A stretch of 55,592 nucleotides of DNA from Acidimicrobiia bacterium (GTDB lineage: Bacteria; Actinomycetota; Acidimicrobiia; Acidimicrobiales; UBA8592): NCBI GenBank assembly GCA_030431575.1, contig JAUIIS010000004.1:1-55592 (forward strand). Direction: 5' to 3'. Under the pieces are notes generated by a model. That model saw only the letters and a list, made by a program, of their open reading frames with translations, was not told the origin of the DNA and made no database searches. Positions 7,623 to 55,592 of the stretch are shown in pieces. How positions within the stretch are numbered: position 1 is the stretch's first letter; every line of letters begins with the position of its first letter. Made by a program: the position numbers and the translations under genes.

Positions 7623-8138
7623 ATGAACACCACAGTCCCCTACCGATCGAACATGCTCTTTCTCGTTGTGATCCTCGCCGTCGCCGCCTTTGCCTGCGGT
7701 GGCGACGACGATGACAATTCGGGCACCGCGGAGGACCAGCCAACCGCAGCTTCGGCAACCGAGAACCCCTCCGACGCTCCCGAAGAAGGGTTAGTCGAGG
7801 AGGAGGCAGAGCAAGCAGTCGGGGCGAGTCTCGCCGCCGCTGCGCAATGCCTGGACGAGCTGGGCTTCAACACCGCTGCCGGCGACGAGAGCTCAACTGG
7901 ACTGACGCCAGACATGATGGAGGGCCTCGGCATTTCCGAGATCCTCACGTTCGACAAAGGCGCAGGTTGGGGTGGCACCATCGAGTCCTACGCATCGTCC
8001 GCACAAGCCGATGTCGCCGAGGACGGATACGCCGGTTCACCCCTTGGCTACGAGGTGGACCGGGTCGACGACATCGTCTTCAAGACCACCGGCCCCGCCG
8101 AGGACCTGTCCGAGATCGCCGGCTGCCTCACCAGCTAG
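7623..8138 (+). CDS. Small secreted lipoprotein of unknown function
   Basis: 171 residues from the ATG at 7623. A hydrophobic N-terminal segment (MLFLVVILAVAAFAC) ends in an AFAC lipobox-like site, followed by GGDDDDNSGTAEDQP and a low-complexity Ala/Glu/Asp/Ser linker to about residue 60, as in many actinobacterial lipoproteins. The C-terminal 100 residues are compact (AAAAQCLDELGFNT ... DRVDDIVFKTT ... EIAGCLTS) and contain two cysteines that could form a disulfide. No family is recognised. The frame is open to 7545, but that part lacks a signal sequence and reads as non-coding. It stands alone, after the terminator of the phosphoesterase gene. Confidence 0.72.
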   Translation: MNTTVPYRSNMLFLVVILAVAAFACGGDDDDNSGTAEDQPTAASATENPSDAPEEGLVEEEAEQAVGASLAAAAQCLDELGFNTAAGDESSTGLTPDMMEGLGISEILTFDKGAGWGGTIESYASSAQADVAEDGYAGSPLGYEVDRVDDIVFKTTGPAEDLSEIAGCLTS

Positions 8139-8210
8139 TCCCACTCCGAACCCCACTACCTCAACTGGCGGACGATGACACCGCCTGGCCACTCTGACCT
8201 TATCATCCAT

Positions 8211-8234
8211 TAATCACGTACTAGTACGTGATTA
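8211..8234. promoter_or_regulatory. Perfect 24-bp palindrome, likely MarR operator
   Basis: Arms TAATCACGTA and TACGTGATTA around a CTAG centre, 100% symmetric, ending 6 bp before the -10 box of the MarR gene. It covers the -35 region, so binding would block transcription; autoregulation is inferred. Confidence 0.8.
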
Positions 8235-8240
8235 CTCATG

Positions 8241-8246
8241 TATACT
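8241..8246 (+). promoter_or_regulatory. -10 box of a leaderless MarR transcript
   Basis: TATACT followed by exactly 6 nt and then the ATG at 8253, so the transcript would begin at the start codon. Confidence 0.6.
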
Positions 8247-8252
8247 GCGGTC

Positions 8253-8678
8253 ATGGATACGCACGAACTTGTGAAGGCGCTCCTGCGCGCCGCAACGAAG
8301 ACAACGAATAGGCTCGACGGGTCGCTGGCATCGATCAAGGGAATCTCGTTTAGCGAGTACCAGCTGCTGTCGGCCCTCGAACAACGACCGGGCATGGTCT
8401 CCACGAGAGTCGACCTCGCCGCCGAGGTTGGCCTGACACCCTCAGGTGTCACCCGAGCATTGAAGCCGCTAGAGAAACTAGGTTTCGTGAACACCGTCAA
8501 AGACGTACGCGATGCCCGACGCTCGCTGGCCACGCTCACAGCCGCTGGTATCGAACTGGTCCAAGATGCCGCTGGCGTCGTGGCCGACACCGTCGCGGAG
8601 ATTGATGGGATAACCGCCCTGTCTGACCAAGACCGCGATGCCCTCGGCCAACTCCTGGGCAGCATGGCGCGGTCTTAA
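8253..8678 (+). CDS. MarR-family transcriptional regulator
   Basis: Winged-helix DNA-binding regulator, 141 residues from the ATG at 8253 (an in-frame ATG at 8238 exists, but the -10 box lies between the two). The core ISFSEYQLLSALEQRPG, the recognition helix region GLTPSGVTRALKPLEKLGFV and the wing DVRDARRSLATLTAAG follow the MarR pattern, with dimerisation helices at both ends. It is preceded by a perfect palindrome. The lipoprotein gene upstream and the SnoaL-like gene downstream run in the same direction; the latter is 72 bp away and could share regulation. The ligand is unknown. Confidence 0.9.
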   Translation: MDTHELVKALLRAATKTTNRLDGSLASIKGISFSEYQLLSALEQRPGMVSTRVDLAAEVGLTPSGVTRALKPLEKLGFVNTVKDVRDARRSLATLTAAGIELVQDAAGVVADTVAEIDGITALSDQDRDALGQLLGSMARS

Positions 8679-8750
8679 GCGACTGCAGCCCCCTGGAAGC
8701 GATTACGGTTCGTTTGGTGCTGTCCGCACCACGATCTGGGGGTTCTGCAG

Positions 8751-9188
8751 ATGTCTGATGGTCAACGGTTGTCGGTTGCCGATCGTGTGGAGATCCACGA
8801 GCTGCCGGGTCGGTATGGCGATGCAATCGACGACCGCAACTGGGACCTCCTTGACCGGGTATTCACCCACGACGCCGTGTTCGACCTCACCGGCGTAGGG
8901 TCGCGTGTGTGTAACGGCCTCGATGACATCAAGGCCTTCATGGAGCACGAGGCTGCTCACCCCAAAACCCACATGATGACCAACGTCTATGCCGACCCCG
9001 ATGGCGACGGCGCACAGATGCGCTCACGCATTGTCGCCCTGCTTGGCAAAGGCCGCACCGGCACCGCCAGCTACTACGACCGACTGGTCCGCACCCCTGA
9101 CGGTTGGCGCATCGAACACCGCATCTGCAGCACCCACCGCCTCCACAAACGCGAAGCCGAAGTCGACCGCCTTGGCATCGCCCTCTAG
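8751..9188 (+). CDS. SnoaL-like (NTF2-fold) protein
   Basis: 145 residues of the SnoaL_4/nuclear-transport-factor-2 fold, a small cone-shaped cavity often used by isomerases, dehydratases or as a binding domain. The N-terminal helix VADRVEIHELPGRYGDAIDDRNWDLL, the strand VFTHDAVFDLTGVG and the C-terminal YYDRLVRTPDGWRIEHRI are typical. His residues in FMEHEAAHPKTHMMTN lie where related dehydratases carry catalytic His. Substrate unknown. It follows the MarR gene on the same strand. Confidence 0.8.
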   Translation: MSDGQRLSVADRVEIHELPGRYGDAIDDRNWDLLDRVFTHDAVFDLTGVGSRVCNGLDDIKAFMEHEAAHPKTHMMTNVYADPDGDGAQMRSRIVALLGKGRTGTASYYDRLVRTPDGWRIEHRICSTHRLHKREAEVDRLGIAL

Positions 9189-9309
9189 CGCCGCCTCCCA
9201 GTCGCCCATCTCCCCGCCCAACTGGCGGACCAGCGTCCCGGCCACGACCACGCCCATCCGCCAGTTCAGAGCGCTCTGAAGGGATGGCGGGACGTGCGAG
9301 ACTGGGGAG

Positions 9310-10116
9310 ATGTTGCATGCACTGTTTCTTCCACCCTTTGGGGAGCTTGCCGATCCGTTGGCCCTTGTCGAGCTCGCTGTCGCTGCCGAAGGGGCCGGGT
9401 GGGATGCGGTGTTCTTGTGGGATCACGTGCTGCGCCGCGAAGGTGAACCTCAGGAGATTGCAGACCCCTGGGTAGCCATGGCGGCTATGGCGATGGCCAC
9501 AGATCGCGTGCGGCTAGGGCCGATGGTTACGCCCATCACCCGTCGTCGACCAATCAAACTGGCGCGGGAAACAACCACGCTCGACCATCTCTCTGAGGGC
9601 CGACTCACTCTGGGCTTGGGGCTCGGGGTCGACACCACCCGAGAGCTAAGTGGCTTCGGTGAGATTGTGGACGAACGCATTCGGGGCCAGCGGCTAGATG
9701 AAGGCGTCGACCTGCTGACCCAGTTCTGGACAGGCGAGGAGGTCAGCTACCACGGCGAACACTTCATCGCTGATGGTGTTGTGGTGGCCCCCCGGCCGTT
9801 CCAGCAACCACGCATTCCGCTTTGGTTCGCTGCAAGAGGGAGTGCCCGCAAACCGGTTCGCCGGGCTGCTCGCTATGACGGCCTCTTTCCCATTGAAGTC
9901 GACGAACCGGGTCTGGTCTCGATGCTGGACGTTGTCCGTGAGGAGCGAGGCTCTTTGGACAACTTCGACGTCATCAAGCACCCAGCAGACGCGGCGCAAT
10001 ACAGCCGGTTCGAGGAGCTGGGCGTGACCTGGGCTGCGACGGGCCCGGGACCCGGCGATACCGGCGTGCTCCAACTTGCTTCGACGCCACCCAAAGACGT
10101 CTTCACCGCAGGCTGA
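9310..10116 (+). CDS. LLM-class flavin/F420-dependent oxidoreductase
   Basis: 268-residue TIM-barrel of the luciferase-like monooxygenase family. It shows FLPPFGELADPLALVELAVAAEGAGWDAVFLWDHV, the conserved LGPMVTPITRRRPIKLARETTTLDHLSEGRLTLGLGLG region and RGQRLDEGVDLLTQFWTGEEVSYHGEHF. Members bind FMN or F420; actinobacterial ones are often F420-dependent (family knowledge). At 268 residues it is somewhat short for the family (about 290-340): the region after YDGLFPIEVDEPG is compact. The next gene starts 3 bp past its stop, so the two are probably co-translated. Confidence 0.9.
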   Translation: MLHALFLPPFGELADPLALVELAVAAEGAGWDAVFLWDHVLRREGEPQEIADPWVAMAAMAMATDRVRLGPMVTPITRRRPIKLARETTTLDHLSEGRLTLGLGLGVDTTRELSGFGEIVDERIRGQRLDEGVDLLTQFWTGEEVSYHGEHFIADGVVVAPRPFQQPRIPLWFAARGSARKPVRRAARYDGLFPIEVDEPGLVSMLDVVREERGSLDNFDVIKHPADAAQYSRFEELGVTWAATGPGPGDTGVLQLASTPPKDVFTAG

Positions 10117-10119
10117 GCA

Positions 10120-10851
10120 GTGGGTTGGGAGGCGCTCAACCAATGGGGTGACGATGCTGTCCGCATCGAACGCTTTACTGACGGAGTGGCCAACGACGTC
10201 TGGGGCGTTCGCGTCAACGATCGGGTCGCCGTAGCCCGTCTGGGATCGAGGAGCGATGCCGACCTTGCGTGGGAGACAGAACTCCTGCGCTACCTAGACG
10301 GGCAAGGCATGAACGTACCGCTGCCGGTCGCAACCACCGATGGCCGGTACTTCGTAGATGGCCTCGTCGTGCTGACCTACGTAGAGGGCGAGCCACCCAA
10401 GACTGAAGATGATTGGCGTCGGGTTGCCAGCACGCTGCGTCAACTCCATCAACTCACCCGTGGCTGGCCGCAACGACCAGGTTGGTGCTCTTCTCAAGAC
10501 CTGCTCACCGCTCAGACCGGCACGAAGGTCGACCTGAGGGCCATGCCCGCAGACGGAGTCGCTCGGTGTCGCGCCGCCTGGGCCAAACTTGCTGACCGCG
10601 AAACCTCGGTTGTCCATGGCGACCCCAACCCCGGCAACGTCCGCATGACCGCCGACCGCGTGACGCTGATCGACTGGGATGAGTCCCACGTCGACGCACC
10701 GGACCTCGACCTTGTTCTGCCACACAACGCAGCAGACCTCGACGATGCCAGCCTCGCCATAGCGTCGCAGGCGTCAGCGGCATGGGAAGCCACTGTCTGT
10801 TGGGACGATGACTACGCCAAAGACCGGCTAGCCGATGTTCGCCCCGTCTGA
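10120..10851 (+). CDS. Aminoglycoside-phosphotransferase-like kinase
   Basis: 243 residues of the APH/choline-kinase fold. The catalytic loop VVHGDPNPGNVR (Brenner-type HxDxxxxN) and the metal-binding LIDWDESHVDAPDLDL are intact; the N-lobe has a short Gly-poor loop in FTDGVANDVWGVRVNDRVAVARL. It begins with GTG 3 bp after the oxidoreductase stop. Substrates in this family include small alcohols, sugars and antibiotics, so the target is not readable here. The C-terminus (AAWEATVCWDDDYAKDRLADVRPV) is shorter than in true aminoglycoside kinases. Confidence 0.8.
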   Translation: MGWEALNQWGDDAVRIERFTDGVANDVWGVRVNDRVAVARLGSRSDADLAWETELLRYLDGQGMNVPLPVATTDGRYFVDGLVVLTYVEGEPPKTEDDWRRVASTLRQLHQLTRGWPQRPGWCSSQDLLTAQTGTKVDLRAMPADGVARCRAAWAKLADRETSVVHGDPNPGNVRMTADRVTLIDWDESHVDAPDLDLVLPHNAADLDDASLAIASQASAAWEATVCWDDDYAKDRLADVRPV

Positions 10852-47241: not shown

Positions 47242-48687
47242 TCAGCCTCGGTAGGGCAGGTCATACTCGGCAAGCGTTGCGGGGTCGTTCGGGTCGACGT
47301 GGCTGAGCGTCACTGGATTGTCGACTCGGCCAATCGGGCGACATCCCGAGCCGATGATCCCGCTCGCCTGATCGCCCAGATCGGCTCGACCCGCTTCGAT
47401 GAGGGCGAGTAGCTCGACCACGATGTCGGGATGCCCCGCGGCAACGTCGTTGGCCTCGCCGATGTCGTCGACCAGGTCGTAGAGCTCGCAGATCTCGGTG
47501 CCGCCCTTGCGTACGTGCAGCTTCCAACGACCGACACGCACGGCCTCGATGTTCGCTCCCGCGATAAAGAAGAACGAGCGATCGTCCTCGACGGCTGGTC
47601 CGTCGAGGCCCACAAGTGCGGCGATGTTCTCGCCGTCAATCCGCCGGTCGGCCGGCACGGACCCACCGGCGATGCCGGCCAGTGTTGGCAACAGATCTAG
47701 AGCAGAGGTCATCTCGGCGACGCGGGTCCCGGGCGCAATCCGGCCAGGCCAGCTCATTAGGCAAGGGACGCGCTGGCCGCCTTCCCAGGTCGTTCCCTTC
47801 GAGGCCCGCAACGGTGCGTTGCTCCCAGCACCATCGGGGCCCGGGGCCAGCGCACCGTTGTCGCTGGTGAAGATGATGACAGTGTCGTCGGCCAGGCCTT
47901 GGCGCTCTAGCTCTTCGGTGATCACTGCGGTGGCCCAGTCGATACTGGCAACGGCCGCACCGTAGGCGCCGTTGCGAGACTGCTGATGAAAGTGCTCCTC
48001 GACGTAGATGGGCACGTGCACATACATGTGAGCGAGGTACAAGAAGAACGGCTTGTCACTGTGCTCTCGAATGAACTCCGTCGATCGTTCAACGTAACGA
48101 CGCGTCAGGGATGCTTGGTCGGGCTGACACTCAATCAGCTCGGTCCCCTCCATCAGCGGGAGCGGCGGCCATTTGAGTTCGAAGTCCAGGCCCGCTGCCC
48201 TGATGCGCTCATTCAGACTCTCCAACGTGGGTTGGCCCTCGGCGCGCACTTGGCGGCCCATGTCGTTGCTGTAGGGCAACCCAAACCACTCGTCGAACCC
48301 GTGGTTGGTTGGCAAGAAGTCGGGCTGGTCGCCGCAGTGCCACTTACCCACCGCCAGCGTGGCGTACCCGGCGTCGCGCAGCATCGACGCAATCGTGACC
48401 TCGTCTGGATGCAGTCCGACGCCATGGCCAGGAAACAGCACCCGCATGTTGTCCATCGAGTCGCCCCCGAAGCCGATGCGAGTCGGGTAGCTCCCGGTGA
48501 GCATTGCTGCCCTGGAGGGCGAGCACACGGGCGAGGCCATGTAGAAGTCAGTAAACAAGGCCCCACCAGCGGCGATGGCATCGAGCGCTGGGGTGTCGTG
48601 AAGATCGGACCCGTAGCAACCAAGATCCCCATAACCGAGGTCGTCGCAGTTGATCAGCACAATGTTTGGTCTGCGATGGGCGCTCAT
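47242..48687 (-). CDS. Type I sulfatase
   Basis: 481 residues of the alkaline-phosphatase superfamily. Metal-binding D15-D16 in INCDDLGYGDLG and the formylglycine site C55-S-P-S-R-A in VCSPSRAAMLTGSYPTRIG define a Cys-type arylsulfatase that needs formylglycine maturation. VGKWHCG, FFLYLAHMYVHVPIY and VIIFTSDNGA are further conserved parts. There is no signal peptide, so it is probably cytosolic, which fits desulfation of imported sulfate esters. The ATG at 48687 follows TACGAT (48695-48700) by 7 nt; the open frame to 48963 overlaps the methyltransferase remnant and is not coding. Confidence 0.93.
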   Translation of the reverse strand: MSAHRRPNIVLINCDDLGYGDLGCYGSDLHDTPALDAIAAGGALFTDFYMASPVCSPSRAAMLTGSYPTRIGFGGDSMDNMRVLFPGHGVGLHPDEVTIASMLRDAGYATLAVGKWHCGDQPDFLPTNHGFDEWFGLPYSNDMGRQVRAEGQPTLESLNERIRAAGLDFELKWPPLPLMEGTELIECQPDQASLTRRYVERSTEFIREHSDKPFFLYLAHMYVHVPIYVEEHFHQQSRNGAYGAAVASIDWATAVITEELERQGLADDTVIIFTSDNGALAPGPDGAGSNAPLRASKGTTWEGGQRVPCLMSWPGRIAPGTRVAEMTSALDLLPTLAGIAGGSVPADRRIDGENIAALVGLDGPAVEDDRSFFFIAGANIEAVRVGRWKLHVRKGGTEICELYDLVDDIGEANDVAAGHPDIVVELLALIEAGRADLGDQASGIIGSGCRPIGRVDNPVTLSHVDPNDPATLAEYDLPYRG

Positions 48688-48799
48688 GCGGGCGATCGTA
48701 CACCGTGGCACAAATGCGACTACCGGCCGCCGGGCGGTGGCCCGTTGAACGGCGCAGCAGTACCATCGGCCGCCTTCTAGACGGCGGGCTTCGATGCGC

Positions 48800-48946
48800 T
48801 CACCAACCGAATCCGCATCCGAGGTCCACCACCTCGAGGCCGGCCTGCGGCCACTCGGCAGCGCCATCCAGTCCGTGGACCTGGCGGTCCAGCGTCTCGT
48901 AGCCGGCCAAGAAGTCAGGGTTGTCATAGATGTTCTGCGTGCCCAT
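48800..48946 (-). pseudogene. Truncated methyltransferase remnant
   Basis: 48 codons starting MGTQNIYDNPDFLAGYETLD and ending VVDLGCGFGW then TGA. The start matches SAM methyltransferases that begin IYDNPEFF.GY..L, and VDLGCGFGW is motif I, but the 10-15 residues expected between EWP and VVDLG are missing and nothing follows the motif. It still has a ribosome site (AGAGGGA). A decayed gene, no longer a working enzyme. Confidence 0.7.
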
Positions 48947-49031
48947 GATTCCCTCTGCACCAACGCTAGCTCTGCGAAGGGACAGCGGCATGCGACGTCG
49001 AACTCGAACGCCGAGCTGGTGAGGGGCAGTT

Positions 49032-50435
49032 TCAGAAACGGAGCCCCCAGTCACCGTGAACATACAGGCGGCCCTCCGACTCGGTGACGGGTTGGACGCC
49101 GAGCGGCTCGCGAACGGGTTTGCGGGTTGGCTGGCCTGTTCGCAGGTCGAATCGGCCGTTGTGCCTGGGGCACTCGATCTCGCACCCCAAGACCACACCC
49201 TGCGACATGTCGGCCTCGCCGTGGGTGCAGATCCGGTCGGCCAACACGTAGCTGCCCTCTTCGGTGCGGGCCAGGACGAAGTCTTGGCCATCGATCCTCA
49301 CTGGCCGGAGGCCTCCGCGTGCCAGGTCGGCCGGGCCCAGGTCAATGCTGTCACCCGCCCTGCCCCAGGCAATGTCCTGAACAATCGGGGCGCGCCTGCC
49401 TGAGACATCTGGGATCTCGCGGTTTGGGATCTCCCAGTCCGGGTCGACACTCTGGTGACGGAAGGCGGTGAAGATCTCTCGATAAGCGTGCAACGTAGAG
49501 GGATTCGGAGCAGGGAGCTGCTGCTTGATCTCTTCATGCAGTGCCCGAAGCCGGTAGTAGGGCACGCTGGGATACATGTGATGTTCGATGTGGTAGTTCA
49601 TGTTGAGATACAGGAACCGCAGGATCGGGTTCATCAACACCGTGCGGGTGGAGTAGCGATGATCCAGGACGTTCTCCTGAAGTCCAGCGTGTTGGGTGAT
49701 GCCAAAGAACACCATGAGCCAGCCGCCATAGATGGTTGGCCCGCCTATGTACAGGATTGGCCAGAGGGTGCCAGTCCAGATGACTGCGGCAATGGCAGCG
49801 ACCCATAGCGATGTGAACACTCGTGCATCTCGCACCATGCGAGGCAGGTCATCGCTGGGCATGAGTTGGCGTTCCACATCGGTGATGCGGCCGAGGGCGG
49901 TCGAGATCGTGTCGCGAAACATCGTGAACGCACCCTGCACGTGGGTGAACCGCAGCAGTGCTTCAGGGACGGTCGTGGGCCGTTGGAAGGCAATCTCTAC
50001 ATCTCGGCCCCGGATGATGGTGTCGGTGTGATGACGGAAATGGGACCAGCGCCAAAACAGAGGGCGGCGCGCCAACATGAAGCAGGCCGGGTAGTAGACG
50101 AGGTCGTTGAGGGTGTTGCTTCGAAAGGCCGTGCCGTGGCCGCATTCGTGCCATCGAGCATCCGCAGCCCCGCCAACCAGTGCCCCGTAGGCAAGGAACG
50201 CCGGCACCGCCCACCAGGTTGATCGCACGTTCCAGGCCAACACCCCGGCAGCAATGATCAGGCCAACCCACACCAGCGTGTCGACAGCAGCCCTGGAGTT
50301 GGACCGTTCTGACAGCTCAGAAAGGCGCTTGAGGTCCACCTCTGCCTGGAACCAATGGCCTTCGGCGAGTCCCGACGCTACCGCTGTTGCCGCCTCGGCC
50401 CCGGTCAACGAATAGTCGCGGCGCATTGCTGGCAA
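49032..50435 (-). CDS. Fatty acid desaturase fused to a Rieske [2Fe-2S] domain
   Basis: 467 residues. A membrane desaturase part has the three His boxes: H96ECGH, HFRHH (132-136) and YHIEHH near 285, with membrane segments around 55-90 and 190-240. After a linker comes a Rieske domain with C403-T-H405 and C422-P-R-H425. Desaturases normally draw electrons from a separate ferredoxin, rubredoxin or cytochrome b5, so the fusion suggests a built-in electron carrier. The start overlaps the 3' end of the Fur-family gene by 31 bp, so they are co-transcribed. The natural substrate (acyl lipid, carotenoid or alkane) is unknown. Confidence 0.92.
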   Translation of the reverse strand: MPAMRRDYSLTGAEAATAVASGLAEGHWFQAEVDLKRLSELSERSNSRAAVDTLVWVGLIIAAGVLAWNVRSTWWAVPAFLAYGALVGGAADARWHECGHGTAFRSNTLNDLVYYPACFMLARRPLFWRWSHFRHHTDTIIRGRDVEIAFQRPTTVPEALLRFTHVQGAFTMFRDTISTALGRITDVERQLMPSDDLPRMVRDARVFTSLWVAAIAAVIWTGTLWPILYIGGPTIYGGWLMVFFGITQHAGLQENVLDHRYSTRTVLMNPILRFLYLNMNYHIEHHMYPSVPYYRLRALHEEIKQQLPAPNPSTLHAYREIFTAFRHQSVDPDWEIPNREIPDVSGRRAPIVQDIAWGRAGDSIDLGPADLARGGLRPVRIDGQDFVLARTEEGSYVLADRICTHGEADMSQGVVLGCEIECPRHNGRFDLRTGQPTRKPVREPLGVQPVTESEGRLYVHGDWGLRF

Positions 50436-50854
50436 GTGCCGGTGAGGGGGAAGTGCGTGAGGTCGAGGGTGACGCCAGTGTGCTTCGAGACGCGCTCAAC
50501 GAAGGCGCGGGTATGGGATCGATTGATGTGAAAGGTCGCGCCACAGGCGCTACAGAGCACCGGGACAGTGGGCAGCCCAGCCAACCGATAGACGGCTTGG
50601 CCGTGGCCGAGGTGAAGGTGTTCGGCAATGCCGAGCTCCTCGAACTGAGCGAGGCTGCGATAGATCGCTGATCGATCATGATCGCCAAGAAGCGCGACGA
50701 TTTCGTCTGCGGTGAGCGAACGTTGTTCGGCGTAGAGCAGTTCAGCGAGCGCTCGCTTTCCGGCGGTTACCCGGCCCCCGTGGCTTCGGATGCGCTCGAT
50801 CGCGCTATCCAGATCGGCCGGAGGTGCAAGGCTGCTGGTACCTGGTCTGGTCAT
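50405..50854 (-). CDS. Fur-family metal-responsive regulator
   Basis: 149 residues: winged helix (SAIERIRSHGGRVTAGKRALAELLYAEQRSLTADEIVALLGDHDRSAIYRSLAQFEELGIAEHLHLGHGQAVYRL) and a dimerisation domain with structural zinc pairs C101-x2-C104 and C141-x2-C144. The HHHxH stretch normally just before the first CxxC is replaced by AGLPTVPVL, so the sensing site differs from classical Fur/Zur. The Tyr-rich recognition helix DRSAIYRSL is normal. It lies divergent to the CbiMQO-type transporter and in one operon with the desaturase-Rieske gene. Confidence 0.9.
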   Translation of the reverse strand: MTRPGTSSLAPPADLDSAIERIRSHGGRVTAGKRALAELLYAEQRSLTADEIVALLGDHDRSAIYRSLAQFEELGIAEHLHLGHGQAVYRLAGLPTVPVLCSACGATFHINRSHTRAFVERVSKHTGVTLDLTHFPLTGTCQQCAATIR

Positions 50855-50920
50855 CTCGCACCTGTCGGCAGATCGGCTACCCCGTCAGGCTAGCCAATGG
50901 AGCCGATTGCTGTACGAAAC

Positions 50921-50945
50921 CTTACTGCGACACGATTGCGATAAG
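50921..50945. promoter_or_regulatory. Imperfect dyad, NUR-box-like, between fur-like gene and cbiM
   Basis: CTTACTGCGAC-AC-GATTGCGATAAG. Within it CTGCGA-N5-TTGCGA resembles the Streptomyces nickel-regulator box (TTGCAA-N5-TTGCAA), 9 of 12 bases. It sits 62 bp upstream of cbiM in the divergent gap. Confidence 0.45.
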
Positions 50946-51007
50946 ACTGATGGGGCGGCTAGGGTCCATTCGCTGCTCGGTCCACGAGCGCTGGAAGGAC
51001 TGGGTCG

Positions 51008-52000
51008 ATGTCGATTGTCGCCATGCACGCACCAGATGGGTTCTTAGAACCTGGTGTCGCGCTTGTCACGGGGCTGATCGCGTTGGCAGTCATGGCCGCG
51101 GCGGTTCGGTCGTCATCACAAGAGCTAGGCGACCGCCAGGTACCGCTGGCTGGCATGGCCGCGGCGTTCATATTCGCCGCGCAGATGTTCAACTTCCCGG
51201 TGGCGTCAGGCACAACCGGCCACCTGTTGGGCGGTGCATTGGCCGCCATCCTGCTGGGCCCGTGGGTGGGTGCTCTGGTGGTTGGCGTTGTGGTGCTGGT
51301 GCAGGCGCTGATCTTCGCCGACGGCGGGCTAACCGCCCTGGGATACAACGTGATCAACATGGCCATCGTGCCCGCGTTCGGTGGATGGGCCATCTACTGC
51401 CTGGTCCGGCGCGTGCTGCCCAGCAACGCCGCCGGCGTCATTGGGGCAACGGCAGTGGCGTCAGGGCTGTCGGTGGTTTTTGCGGCCAGCGCGTTCTCGA
51501 TCCAGTGGCTGTTCGGTGCCACTGCGCCGGTGCCGTTCGACACCGTTTTTGGGGCAATGGTCGGGGTCCATGTGCTCATCGGGATCGGCGAGGCAGCCAT
51601 TTCAGCGATGGCTATTGCCGCAGTATTGGCGGCCCGCCCAGACCTCGTAGTCGGGGCTCAGGATCTCAACGCAACACAACTTGCCGATCGCCCGCGTGTC
51701 GGCGCCCGTCCGTTCGTGATTGGGGGGTTGCTTGTTGCTGTGTTCCTCGCAATGGTGGTCAGCCAGTTCGCCGCAAGTAGCCCAGATGGCCTCGAGAAGG
51801 TGGCCGAGGACAAAGGCTTTAGCGACAGCGCCACCGACCACACCTTCGCCCAGAGCATGTTCGCGGACTATGCCACTCGAGGCATCGATAACGAGAACCT
51901 CAGCCTCGCGATCGCGGGGGTCACCGGCGTCACGCTGACCCTGGCCGTCGGGACAGGTATGGCCGTTGGCGCTCGACAGCTTCGACGGGCCGCTACCTAA
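51008..52000 (+). CDS. cbiM: ECF-type metal transporter substrate-binding subunit CbiM/NikM, fused to a PDGLE domain
   Basis: 330 residues. The core MHAPDGFLEPGVALVTGLIALAVMAAAV, then FNFPVASGTTGHLLGGALAAILLGPW, matches CbiM/NikM; the conserved M-H near the N-terminus and the H in TGHL bind cobalt or nickel. In known members that Met is residue 1 (or exposed by cleavage); here the ATG with a good ribosome site (GGAAGG) is 5 codons earlier at 51008, and the family-like start would be 51023. The C-terminus carries a PDGLE domain (SSPDGLEKVAEDKGF) and one more helix, taking the role of CbiN/NikN. The stop overlaps cbiQ. Confidence 0.92.
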   Translation: MSIVAMHAPDGFLEPGVALVTGLIALAVMAAAVRSSSQELGDRQVPLAGMAAAFIFAAQMFNFPVASGTTGHLLGGALAAILLGPWVGALVVGVVVLVQALIFADGGLTALGYNVINMAIVPAFGGWAIYCLVRRVLPSNAAGVIGATAVASGLSVVFAASAFSIQWLFGATAPVPFDTVFGAMVGVHVLIGIGEAAISAMAIAAVLAARPDLVVGAQDLNATQLADRPRVGARPFVIGGLLVAVFLAMVVSQFAASSPDGLEKVAEDKGFSDSATDHTFAQSMFADYATRGIDNENLSLAIAGVTGVTLTLAVGTGMAVGARQLRRAAT

Positions 52001-52773
52001 TGGGCGGCGGGCACGCGCCCAACAAGATTCACGACCTAGTGATCTCAGGCGAGTCGAGCGTCCACCGACTGCCGCCCGACGTCAAACTGGTCGCGCTTGT
52101 GGCCTTCGTGTCCTCCATCGCCATGACGCCACGGCACGCAGTCTGGGCTTTCGCTGTCTATGCCGCGATACTGGCAGCGGTCACTGCGATTGCCAGAGTC
52201 CCCATTGCGGTAATCGGCCGGCGTCTGCTGATTGTCGCACCGTTCCTCATGGCCGCAGCGCTGGTGCCCTTCATTGGTGACGGGCCACAGACCAAGGTCG
52301 GCCCGTTCAACCTGTCGACCGATGGCCTGTGGGCCGCGTGGAACATCTGTGCGAAAGCGCTGCTCGGCGCCACTGCCAGCATTCTGCTCACCTCAACAAC
52401 GCCGATCCCTGATCTTCTCGTCGGCATGACCAGACTTCGCGTTCCTCGACCGGTGGTGTCCATCGTGGCATTCATGGTCCGCTACCTCGACCTACTCGCC
52501 GATCAGTTTCAACGCATGCGCCTTGCCATGGCGGCCAGAGGCCACGACCCCCGATGGCTGTGGCAAGCCCGTCCGGTAGCAAGTGCTGCAGGCACCTTGT
52601 TCGTCCACGCCTACGAACGTGGCGAGCGTACGCATCAAGCCATGTTGGCCCGAGGTTTCACTGGCCACATGCCGGACCTCGACACACCGACGCGCAGCTC
52701 GGGGGCGTGGCTTACCGCGCTGGGGCCAGCAGCACTTGCGGTATCGGTTTGCATCGTCGCAATCGTCCAATGA
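52000..52773 (+). CDS. cbiQ: ECF transporter T-component CbiQ
   Basis: 257 residues with five or six hydrophobic helices and the two coupling motifs of the T-component as QRMRLAMAARGHDPRW and ERTHQAMLARGFTG (the A-R-G signatures that contact the ATPases). N-terminal VKLVALVAFVSSIAMTPRHAVWAFAVYAAIL is typical. It links the substrate subunit CbiM to the ATPase. The ATG overlaps the cbiM stop by one base and its stop overlaps cbiO by 4 bp. Confidence 0.93.
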   Translation: MGGGHAPNKIHDLVISGESSVHRLPPDVKLVALVAFVSSIAMTPRHAVWAFAVYAAILAAVTAIARVPIAVIGRRLLIVAPFLMAAALVPFIGDGPQTKVGPFNLSTDGLWAAWNICAKALLGATASILLTSTTPIPDLLVGMTRLRVPRPVVSIVAFMVRYLDLLADQFQRMRLAMAARGHDPRWLWQARPVASAAGTLFVHAYERGERTHQAMLARGFTGHMPDLDTPTRSSGAWLTALGPAALAVSVCIVAIVQ

Positions 52774-53516
52774 CCGCCGCCATCTCCATCCGAAGTCTCA
52801 CCTATCGCTACCCCAACAGCCACAGGAATGTGCTCGACGGAATCGAGCTCGACATCTACCCAGGCGAACGGGTTGCCCTCCTGGGCCCAAACGGGTCCGG
52901 CAAAACCACGATGGCCCTACACCTCAACGGTCTCCTGCCAATCCAGGCAGGTTCGATAACTATCCAGGACACCTTGGTGGCTGATGCCAACCTCGCCGAT
53001 ATCCGCCGACGCGTCGGCATGGTGTTCCAAGATCCAGACGATCAGCTATTCATGACTACGGTCGGCGATGACGTCGCATTCGGGCCTGCCAACCTCGGCA
53101 TCAACCCACCCCAGCGCGACCTAGTTGTGCAGGACGCCCTGGCCGCAGTGGACGCCACCCACCTCGCCGAACGGCACCCACACCACATCTCCGGCGGTGA
53201 GAAACGCCGCGCCGCAATCGCCACCGTGCTGGCCATGAGCCCAGACATCGTTGTCCTTGACGAACCAACCTCGGGCCTCGACCCTGTGGGGCGACGAGAG
53301 CTCGCCGAACTGTTGGCCACCATCGGCGCCACCCAATTGGTCATCACCCACGATCTCCCCTTTGCGTTGGCTACCTGCCCCCGATCGGTCATCGTCGACC
53401 AAGGCCGCATCGCCGCAGACGCTCCAACCATCGACCTGCTCAGCGATCCCGAACGGTTGATCCAGCACCGCCTTGAGCTGCCCTACGGCTTCCAACTTCG
53501 TGCCCCCGGTGCCTAG
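52770..53516 (+). CDS. cbiO: ECF transporter ATPase CbiO
   Basis: 248 residues. Walker A LLGPNGSGKTTM, Q-loop VFQDPDDQLFMTTVGDDVAFGP, signature ISGGEKRRAAIATVLAMSPDIVVLDEPTSGLDPVG and switch VITHDLPFA. It energises cobalt/nickel uptake through CbiMQ. The gap after it (53517-53680) holds a 15-bp direct repeat with one mismatch (53627-53641 and 53666-53680) and, in frame after the cbiO TAG, an open stretch (VIIDVGRNWTSWEDSVTLW) that I cannot assign. Confidence 0.95.
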   Translation: MTAAISIRSLTYRYPNSHRNVLDGIELDIYPGERVALLGPNGSGKTTMALHLNGLLPIQAGSITIQDTLVADANLADIRRRVGMVFQDPDDQLFMTTVGDDVAFGPANLGINPPQRDLVVQDALAAVDATHLAERHPHHISGGEKRRAAIATVLAMSPDIVVLDEPTSGLDPVGRRELAELLATIGATQLVITHDLPFALATCPRSVIVDQGRIAADAPTIDLLSDPERLIQHRLELPYGFQLRAPGA

Positions 53517-53680: not shown

Positions 53681-54529
53681 TTAGGCGATGCTTGGCGTGC
53701 GGGTAGTTCGGTGAAGCGCAGCCAATGCCTCGCGAGCGGCAAGTACCACGAAGAACTGCAGAACGCTGAACCCGGCAATAGTGGCACCGCCTGCGGTTCC
53801 GTGATGGAAGCTCACGAGTAGCCCGGCAACCACAGCCACCGCACCAAGTAAGGTCGAGGTGACCATGATGGCCGGGACACGGTTCACCAGAAGCGAAGCG
53901 GTGGCGGGTGGCCCTACAAGCAGGCCAAAAACCAGCAGGGTGCCAATGGCCTGGAAGCTTGCGACGATGCTCAGCGCCAGCAAAGCCAACAAAGCCGCTT
54001 GAGCCAGCTGGGGGCGCATACCAAGGGTCTGGGCCTTCGCACGATTGAACGTCAACGCCAAGAATGGGCGGTACAGCACGACCGTGCAGATAACGACAAC
54101 GGCGGTCGCGATTGCTTGATTCTGGATATCCCCACTGGTTACGCCAAGGACATCACCAAAGAGGAGCGCTGTCACCTCGGTCGAGAACGACTGCGCCCTC
54201 GACACAATCACGATGCCCAGCGAAAGCATTCCCACGAACAGCAACCCAATCGCGGTGTCCTCGCGCACGATCGTGCGGTTTGAGACGACGCTCACGAGTC
54301 CGCTCATCACCAACGCTGCAACGAACGCACCGATGAGTGGGCTAAACCCCCAAAGGACTGCCAGCGCGATACCCGGAATGACGCCGTGGGCCAGCGCATC
54401 GCCAAGAAACGCTAACCCCCGAAGCACCACCCACGTTCCGACCAGCGATGTAGCCACGACCGCGATCAGGCTCCCGATAAGTGCCCTTTGCATGAATGCG
54501 GGTTCAAACGCATCGAAGAGAAAATCCAT
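53681..54529 (-). CDS. znuB: Metal (zinc/manganese) ABC transporter permease
   Basis: 282 residues of the ABC-3 family with eight or so helices: FMQRALIGSLIAVVATSLVGTWVVLRGLAFLGDALAHGVIPGIALAVLWGFSPLIGAFVAALV, then REDTAIGLLFVGMLSLGIVIVSRA and FQAIGTLLVFGLLVGPPATASLLVNRVP. The D-A-L-A-H-G coupling region is intact. It lies 15 bp past the substrate-binding protein gene. No cognate ATPase gene follows; it may lie upstream of the binding protein outside the window, or another ATPase may serve. Zinc is favoured by the His-rich binding protein. Confidence 0.9.
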   Translation of the reverse strand: MDFLFDAFEPAFMQRALIGSLIAVVATSLVGTWVVLRGLAFLGDALAHGVIPGIALAVLWGFSPLIGAFVAALVMSGLVSVVSNRTIVREDTAIGLLFVGMLSLGIVIVSRAQSFSTEVTALLFGDVLGVTSGDIQNQAIATAVVVICTVVLYRPFLALTFNRAKAQTLGMRPQLAQAALLALLALSIVASFQAIGTLLVFGLLVGPPATASLLVNRVPAIMVTSTLLGAVAVVAGLLVSFHHGTAGGATIAGFSVLQFFVVLAAREALAALHRTTRTPSIA

Positions 54530-54544
54530 GGCCGAATGGAAGCC

Positions 54545-55592
54545 TTAGCTGGTCAGGGCCGAGACAATGCGTTCGGCGTTCGTGCGGACCATATCGAGAT
54601 ATGTCGCTCCGTCGGAATCGTCTGCTCCGAGCGACTCCGAGAATAGTTCGACCACCTCGATATCACCGACTTCGCTGGAGAGCGTCTGTGCAAGCTCGTC
54701 AGACGACGATGTGTCGGCGAAGATCGCAGGCACGGCCTCGTCCTCGATCAGTTCGGCGAGCTCGGCCAGCGCTTGGGCGCTGGTTCCATCAGCGGTGCTC
54801 CCTGACGGGATGACCGTGCCCACGACCTCGAATCCATAGCGGTCTGCGAAGTAGCCGAACACCTCGTGGTTAGTGAGCAGAACCCGGTCGTCCGTGTCGA
54901 TTGCTGCCAGCATTTCGTTGACTTCGCTGTCAAGTTTCTCGAGTTCACCCACATAGGCATCTGCGGCCGCAGCTAGAGCATCGGCATCGATGGAATCGAC
55001 ATTCTCGACGAGAAAGTCTGCGATGCCAGCAGCGGCCAACGCCATGCGAGTTGGGTCGGTGAAGAAGTGTGGGTCCACGCCCTCATGATCATGCCCATCA
55101 TGGTCCTCATCACCATGATCTCCATCGTCATGGTCCTCATCGTCATGGGCCTCATCGTCATGGGCCTCATCGTCATGGGCCTCATCGTCATGGACCTCAT
55201 CGTCATGGACCTCATCGTCATGGACCTCATCGTCATGGTCCTCATCGTCATGGTCCTCATCGTCATGATCTTCATCACCGTGATCGTGACCGCCTTCGCC
55301 GAACTCGATGGTCCCGACGGCTTTAATCGCCTCGAACACAAGGACGCCATCGGCCTCCGCGGCCTCTATAACGTCGAGCAGGCCTTCTTCGAAACCAGCG
55401 CCATTGACGATCACTACATCGGCGTCACCGATCTCAGCTACCTGCTGCGCAGACGCCTGAAAGTCGTGCGGATCCGCGCCGACCGGCATGATCGTGATGA
55501 CATCAAACTGATCTCCGGCCAGGTTTTCGACAACATCGCCGAGGATGTTGGTGGTCACCACGATCACTGGCTGTTCAGCATCAGATTCGACG
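54545..55592 (-). CDS. znuA: Metal ABC transporter substrate-binding protein with His/Asp-rich loop (5' end outside window)
   Basis: At least 349 residues; the 5' end (signal/lipobox) is cut by the window edge: the frame stays open to the last base as VESDAEQPVIVVTTNILGD. ZnuA-like metal ligands are visible: H in GADPHDFQAS, H in GVDPHFFTDP, H in LLTNHEVFGYF and D in AIFADTSSSDEL. Between the first and second lies a long HDDED-type repeat about 65 residues long, as in zinc-binding proteins where it captures extra metal. It starts the operon with the permease gene downstream. The GTG at 55567 is not the true start. Confidence 0.92.
   Translation of the reverse strand, partial: VESDAEQPVIVVTTNILGDVVENLAGDQFDVITIMPVGADPHDFQASAQQVAEIGDADVVIVNGAGFEEGLLDVIEAAEADGVLVFEAIKAVGTIEFGEGGHDHGDEDHDDEDHDDEDHDDEVHDDEVHDDEVHDDEAHDDEAHDDEAHDDEDHDDGDHGDEDHDGHDHEGVDPHFFTDPTRMALAAAGIADFLVENVDSIDADALAAAADAYVGELEKLDSEVNEMLAAIDTDDRVLLTNHEVFGYFADRYGFEVVGTVIPSGSTADGTSAQALAELAELIEDEAVPAIFADTSSSDELAQTLSSEVGDIEVVELFSESLGADDSDGATYLDMVRTNAERIVSALTS
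55126..55275 (-). repeat. 15-bp tandem repeat inside the metal-binding protein gene
   Basis: Nine near-identical units CGTCATGGNCCTCAT (55126-55260) plus a degenerate one; each encodes D-E-x-H-D on the minus strand. The variable base runs T, GGG, AAA, TT along the plus strand, so x is D, then V (three), then A (three), then D, a pattern of stepwise block duplication. Confidence 0.9.

Follow-up and report, generated by a model that had tools for sequence, protein, structure and literature searches.

A probable MocD-MocE fusion oxygenase, linked with inositol genes in most acidimicrobial relatives, overlaps a Fur-family gene in a single genome

The window analysed here is a stretch of 55,592 nt from an Acidimicrobiia bacterium (contig JAUIIS010000004.1). 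At nt 49032–50426 of its minus strand, it encodes a protein of 464 residues in which an FA_desaturase-fold di-iron oxygenase is fused to a C-terminal Rieske ferredoxin domain. The gene is most likely a one-piece version of the known oxygenase pair formed by MocD and its electron carrier MocE. Homology to rhizobial proteins, the linkage with inositol catabolic (iol) genes at 39 of 64 loci, the phylogenetic tree and a MocF-type reductase in the window's genome together make it quite probable that the protein is a reductase-fed membrane di-iron oxygenase of a small polar substrate, one whose gene is iol-linked in most acidimicrobial relatives and was placed behind a fur gene here.

Identity of the fusion protein

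The 464-residue frame starts at an ATG; an alternative TTG start at nt 50435 would add three residues. The FA_desaturase domain covers residues 69–309 (nt 49500–50222, minus strand; Pfam E value 2e-39), and the Rieske [2Fe-2S] domain covers residues 366–441 (nt 49104–49331, minus strand; E value 2e-12). Both exceed the Pfam gathering cut-offs. The His boxes H93-ECG-H97, H129-FR-H132-H133 and H279-IE-H282-H283 are invariant in an alignment of 36 relatives, as are H246 and H256. The Rieske ligands, read from the sequence, are C400-X1-H402-X16-C419-X2-H422. With these domain matches and ligands, the predicted order of a three-His-box desaturase fold followed by a Rieske domain is borne out. The AlphaFold model, made with 36 homologues, has a mean pLDDT of 85.6; its membrane part is helical, and its Rieske part is rich in beta structure. 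The best Foldseek matches of the model are Rieske ferredoxins, mostly from aromatic dioxygenase systems, with TM scores of 0.8–0.9 over the Rieske domain.

His-box motifs alone cannot tell a hydroxylase from a desaturase. DesA/DesB, CrtR and the arginine hydroxylase GntB share the Pfam fold and the three His boxes with the fusion, but their curated models give it only 19–38 bits against cut-offs of 380–500 (for DesA/DesB/CrtR, 19–32 bits against 475–500). The catalytic part is about 45–49% identical, over the full domain and with the same His boxes, to the rhizobial MocD encoded together with mocE and mocF. The original prediction of a lipid or carotenoid desaturase was rejected on the low model scores and the identity to MocD. 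MocD of R. johnstonii and the window protein have their distant model matches in common. For the Rieske domain, the best NCBIfam match is MocE (TIGR02377); its 62 bits lie under the cut-off of 136, which counts against the MocD-MocE assignment. MocE of R. johnstonii, a separate gene on pRL11, scores 184 bits, above this cut-off.

MocD is described as the rhizopine oxygenase converting 3-O-MSI to SI (PMC2593844), and mocDEF is listed among the rhizopine catabolism units (PMC10107442). In the accessible papers the MocD reaction is cited and not demonstrated by enzyme assay, which counts against the assignment. In the rhizobial loci, MocD, MocE and mocF follow one another in order; a LacI gene in divergent orientation and a gene for a TIM-barrel protein lie alongside. 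This order of LacI, TIM barrel and mocDEF agrees with the description of mocDEF clusters beside FixV homologues (PMC3538637). The window protein shares the catalytic part, and a Rieske ferredoxin whose nearest model is MocE, with the MocD-MocE-MocF rhizopine ferredoxin oxygenase complex of Sinorhizobium meliloti L5-30 and Rhizobium leguminosarum. It differs from the complex in that D and E form one polypeptide, and in that neither a linked mocF nor a moc regulator or LacI gene was found in the window neighbourhood. Another similarity to the rhizobial system is that most acidimicrobial relatives have iol pathway genes alongside; the window's genome, in which no iolB or iolD was found, differs in this respect.

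The Rieske domain had been taken to suggest a self-contained electron route. The fusion has no reductase domain, however, and an NAD(P)H:ferredoxin reductase would still be needed. In relatives, this supply is provided by mocF (rhizobia) or by a fused NqrF-like domain (Verrucomicrobiota). The window's genome carries a MocF-type reductase of 40% identity on another contig, and a small ORF, ferredoxin-like by reading of its sequence, adjoins it.

Relatives and domain architectures

Relatives were scanned in one genome per GTDB species. Full-length relatives of the fusion reach 69% identity within Acidimicrobiales, and identity falls to about 40% for those of rhizobia, Verrucomicrobiota and Acidobacteriota. 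Since they occur in hundreds of candidate stretches, and in fused form in the Acidimicrobiia, the window fusion is neither a chance frame nor an assembly artefact.

Three architectures were observed. In rhizobia and other Pseudomonadota, MocD and MocE are encoded by two neighbouring genes, and in most cases mocF comes next. Acidimicrobiia, the window included, have a single fused D-E protein. Verrucomicrobiota, Acidobacteriota and Bacteroidota have a D-E protein with a C-terminal extension, about 750 residues in all (L042, L058, L060, L067 at nt 7980–10238, L077 and L082). The extension of L067 is a reductase domain of the NqrF-like FAD/NAD type, which by domain content would complete the oxygenase electron chain within a single polypeptide. 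The tri-domain proteins are 41–43% identical to the window protein and have the same D-E order and the same His and Rieske ligands; unlike it, they carry an added reductase domain, shown for L067, and so may be self-contained. The literature search for fused desaturase-Rieske or MocE-desaturase proteins returned no relevant paper in the searchable literature, where both the acidimicrobial D-E and the tri-domain fusions appear to be undescribed.

A maximum-likelihood tree of the relatives, computed without an outgroup, places the window protein with those of L005 and L006 in one clade (support 100/99). The sister group of this clade comprises the iol-linked L007, L008, L009 and L127 (support 100/100). 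Among relatives of known family, the nearest, at 69% identity, belongs to another family than the window genome, and the copies from the window's own family are only 47–48% identical to the window protein. In AT-rich genomes of the same family (L131:6552–8737 and L133:10066–12280), the neighbours of the fusion are a VOC protein, an HD-domain protein resembling PhnZ/TmpB and an alpha/beta hydrolase lipoprotein. Such surroundings possibly represent a second oxidative pathway.

Neighbourhoods of the fusion gene

At 39 of the 64 distinct acidimicrobial fusion loci sampled, two or more of iolB, iolC, iolD and iolG were present; in L009/L010 the IolB, IolC, IolD and IolG models exceed their NCBIfam cut-offs. 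With a Fur profile, no Fur gene was found near the fusion at any of the 64 loci, nor at the other loci fetched, and the profile detected all of its positive controls (the window's own Fur and three Fur-cbiM loci). Thus the acidimicrobial fusion is linked with inositol catabolism and not with metal regulation. The domain order recurs in other genomes and the regulator neighbour does not, so the regulator-desaturase pairing of the original prediction fails outside the window.

Within the window, the overlap itself is real. The end of fur (TGA) and the start of the fusion (ATG) share 22 bp on the minus strand (nt 50405–50426). The 31 bp first reported for this overlap fits the TTG start at nt 50435. 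No clear Shine-Dalgarno sequence for the fusion start was seen at the overlap. A promoter and terminator scan of nt 48700–51100 found no terminator, and one weak promoter-like site off the fur start at chance level; an Rfam search of the window gave no RNA element match. Judging from the overlap, it is plausible that fur and the fusion are co-transcribed in this one genome; the pairing was found at none of the other loci sampled.

Two metal importers adjoin, as had been predicted, and family models confirm the CbiM, CbiQ, ZnuA and ZnuB assignments. Divergent from fur on the plus strand are the genes for CbiM with a fused PDGLE (CbiN-like) domain, the S component of a Co/Ni ECF importer (nt 51008–52000), CbiQ (nt 52000–52773; TIGR02454 above cut-off) and a CbiO-like ATPase (nt 52770–53516, start approximate), whose 38–65% identical relatives lie within cbiMQO operons of other genomes. 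On the minus strand follow a Zn-type ABC permease of the ZnuB/AztB type (nt 53681–54529; AztB NF040871 above cut-off) and a Zn-binding protein of the ZnuA/AztC-like kind (nt 54545–55567). The metal loop of this protein is a long acidic-histidine repeat of the form (HDDE[V/A/D])n.

On the other side, downstream of the fusion and on the same strand, lies a sulfatase-family gene (nt 47242–48741; PF00884). Its identity as a choline-sulfatase was rejected, with 120 bits against a cut-off of 433. Between the two genes, just downstream of the fusion, is an apparent methyltransferase remnant (nt 48800–48946, minus strand; MGTQNIYDNPDFLAGYE...VVDLGCGFGW, then a stop). It is about 48 residues long and without a family match; it resembles a class I methyltransferase and stops after the glycine-rich SAM motif.

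The overlap on the same strand, the adjoining metal importers and the iron requirement of the enzyme would all suit a lipid or carotenoid desaturase with a built-in electron carrier, tied to Zn, Ni, Co or Fe through the Fur-family gene. We regard this as a very unlikely account of the locus, given a sequence that is that of MocD, the lack of Fur at the relatives' loci and a regulator that pairs with cbiM where the enzyme is absent. The position beside a metal regulator is a single-genome juxtaposition, and with it the proposed link between lipid or carotenoid desaturation and metals.

The Fur-family regulator and its partner

The Fur-family gene (nt 50405–50854, minus strand; PF01475, E value 1e-9) encodes 149 residues. 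The closest solved relative of the protein is Nur (3EYY; E value 2e-12). The window Fur retains H79/H81/H134 and the CxxC pairs C101/C104 and C141/C144. In the alignment to 3EYY, H79, H81 and H134 match Nur H70/H72/H126, and no histidines stand opposite Nur H33/H86/H88/H90, taken here as the four-His M site. The window protein thus shares the three-His set with Nur, the Ni-responsive Fur-family protein of Streptomyces coelicolor, and differs from it in lacking the four-His set and in having cbiMQO as the partner operon. In Nur, the M site consists of four histidines and the Ni site of three (PMC7055735).

The fur gene is divergent from cbiM in the window, in G030, in G022 and in G002, a genome of the same family as the window's. 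In G002 the pair is present and the fusion gene is absent. The conserved partner of fur is therefore the divergent cbiM and not the fusion. Elsewhere in the regulator subfamily, many members adjoin ZnuA-type genes. In the genomes of L005 and L006, which have the closest fusion relatives, cbiM lies on other contigs and has no Fur gene beside it. No convincing Fur/Nur-type palindrome was found in the fur-cbiM intergenic region of the window. The window Fur and the protein of L138:2525–3055 (plus strand), both cbiMQO-adjacent, lack the HxHxH before the first CxxC that is common in most subfamily members. Such proteins are possibly a Co-sensing variant.

In this lineage a MocDE oxygenase could also have moved out of inositol catabolism and been recruited into the operon of a Co/Ni-sensing Fur-family regulator, so that transition-metal status would switch the oxidation of a methylated metabolite. 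We consider such a recruitment very unlikely.

Substrate and reaction in the window genome

Searches of the window's genome found no close IolB or IolD; as this genome is 83% complete, the absence is suggestive only. The exact substrate here is accordingly uncertain, and an inositol route cannot be assumed. IolB and IolD were not found in G002 either. The absence in the window's genome weighs against the MocD-MocE reading, as do the settings of the nearest relatives, beside an ABC importer in L005 or with the VOC and HD-domain proteins in the same-family genomes.

The importer of L005 is of the choline/betaine type and lies directly upstream of a fusion that is 69% identical to the window protein (L005:3762–7751). 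It comprises divergent ProX, ProV and a doubled ProW, with the ProV and permease models above cut-off. This ProXVW-type importer, the missing iolB and iolD of the window's genome and the departure of the window/L005/L006 clade from the iol cluster would suit a MocD-family enzyme whose substrate has shifted within this clade, for example from a methyl-inositol to an N-methylated osmolyte of the betaine or choline type. Such a shift is conceivable though unlikely: the L006 fusion has no such importer alongside, the L005 and L006 genomes keep iolD and iolB away from the fusion, and the window fusion adjoins no betaine genes, the nearby sulfatase scoring under the choline-sulfatase cut-off.

The simplest account of the position in the window is that the fusion gene would have moved to a new site behind fur; its clade is sister to iol-linked loci, iolB and iolD were not found and a methyltransferase remnant lies downstream. 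A stronger version holds that the gene is decaying or recently transferred, that a rearrangement brought it behind fur and that it is a passenger there with no settled role. Besides the remnant and the missing iol genes, it could draw on the absence of the fusion from G002 and on the low identity of the same-family copies beside a 69% relative in another family. The frame of 464 residues is intact, however, and every metal ligand is kept, which renders this version rather improbable.

For the MocD-MocE fusion, the reaction type, the substrate class and the electron path proposed here are those we consider most likely. In the family, a separate reductase feeds the Rieske domain with electrons, which then reach the di-iron site, where O2 is activated. 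A separate NAD(P)H:ferredoxin reductase would give electrons to the Rieske domain of the fusion, which would pass them to the membrane-embedded His-box di-iron site. This site would activate O2 and hydroxylate a small polar molecule. Hydroxylation would typically occur at an O-methyl (or N-methyl) group, which would then be lost as formaldehyde. For the majority of acidimicrobial relatives, a methylated or otherwise modified inositol that would feed the iol pathway is the probable substrate. A search for pinitol-demethylase found nothing. In the window genome, where the fusion would have been put behind a Fur gene whose own conserved target would be cbiMQO, the substrate is probably related and methylated cyclitol-like.

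Significance

The reading of the window gene as a desaturase tied to metals was misleading and is corrected here. The enzyme kind, a MocDEF ferredoxin oxygenase, is known; the fused, iol-linked lineage appears to be new, and the position in this one genome is unusual. The rhizopine-type oxygenase known from separate mocD, mocE and mocF genes also occurs in graded fused forms: D-E in Acidimicrobiia, and D-E-reductase in Verrucomicrobiota and others. These fusions offer simple one- or two-protein systems in which MocD chemistry could be measured. The usual iol-cluster setting of the acidimicrobial fusions predicts that Acidimicrobiia would degrade methylated inositols.
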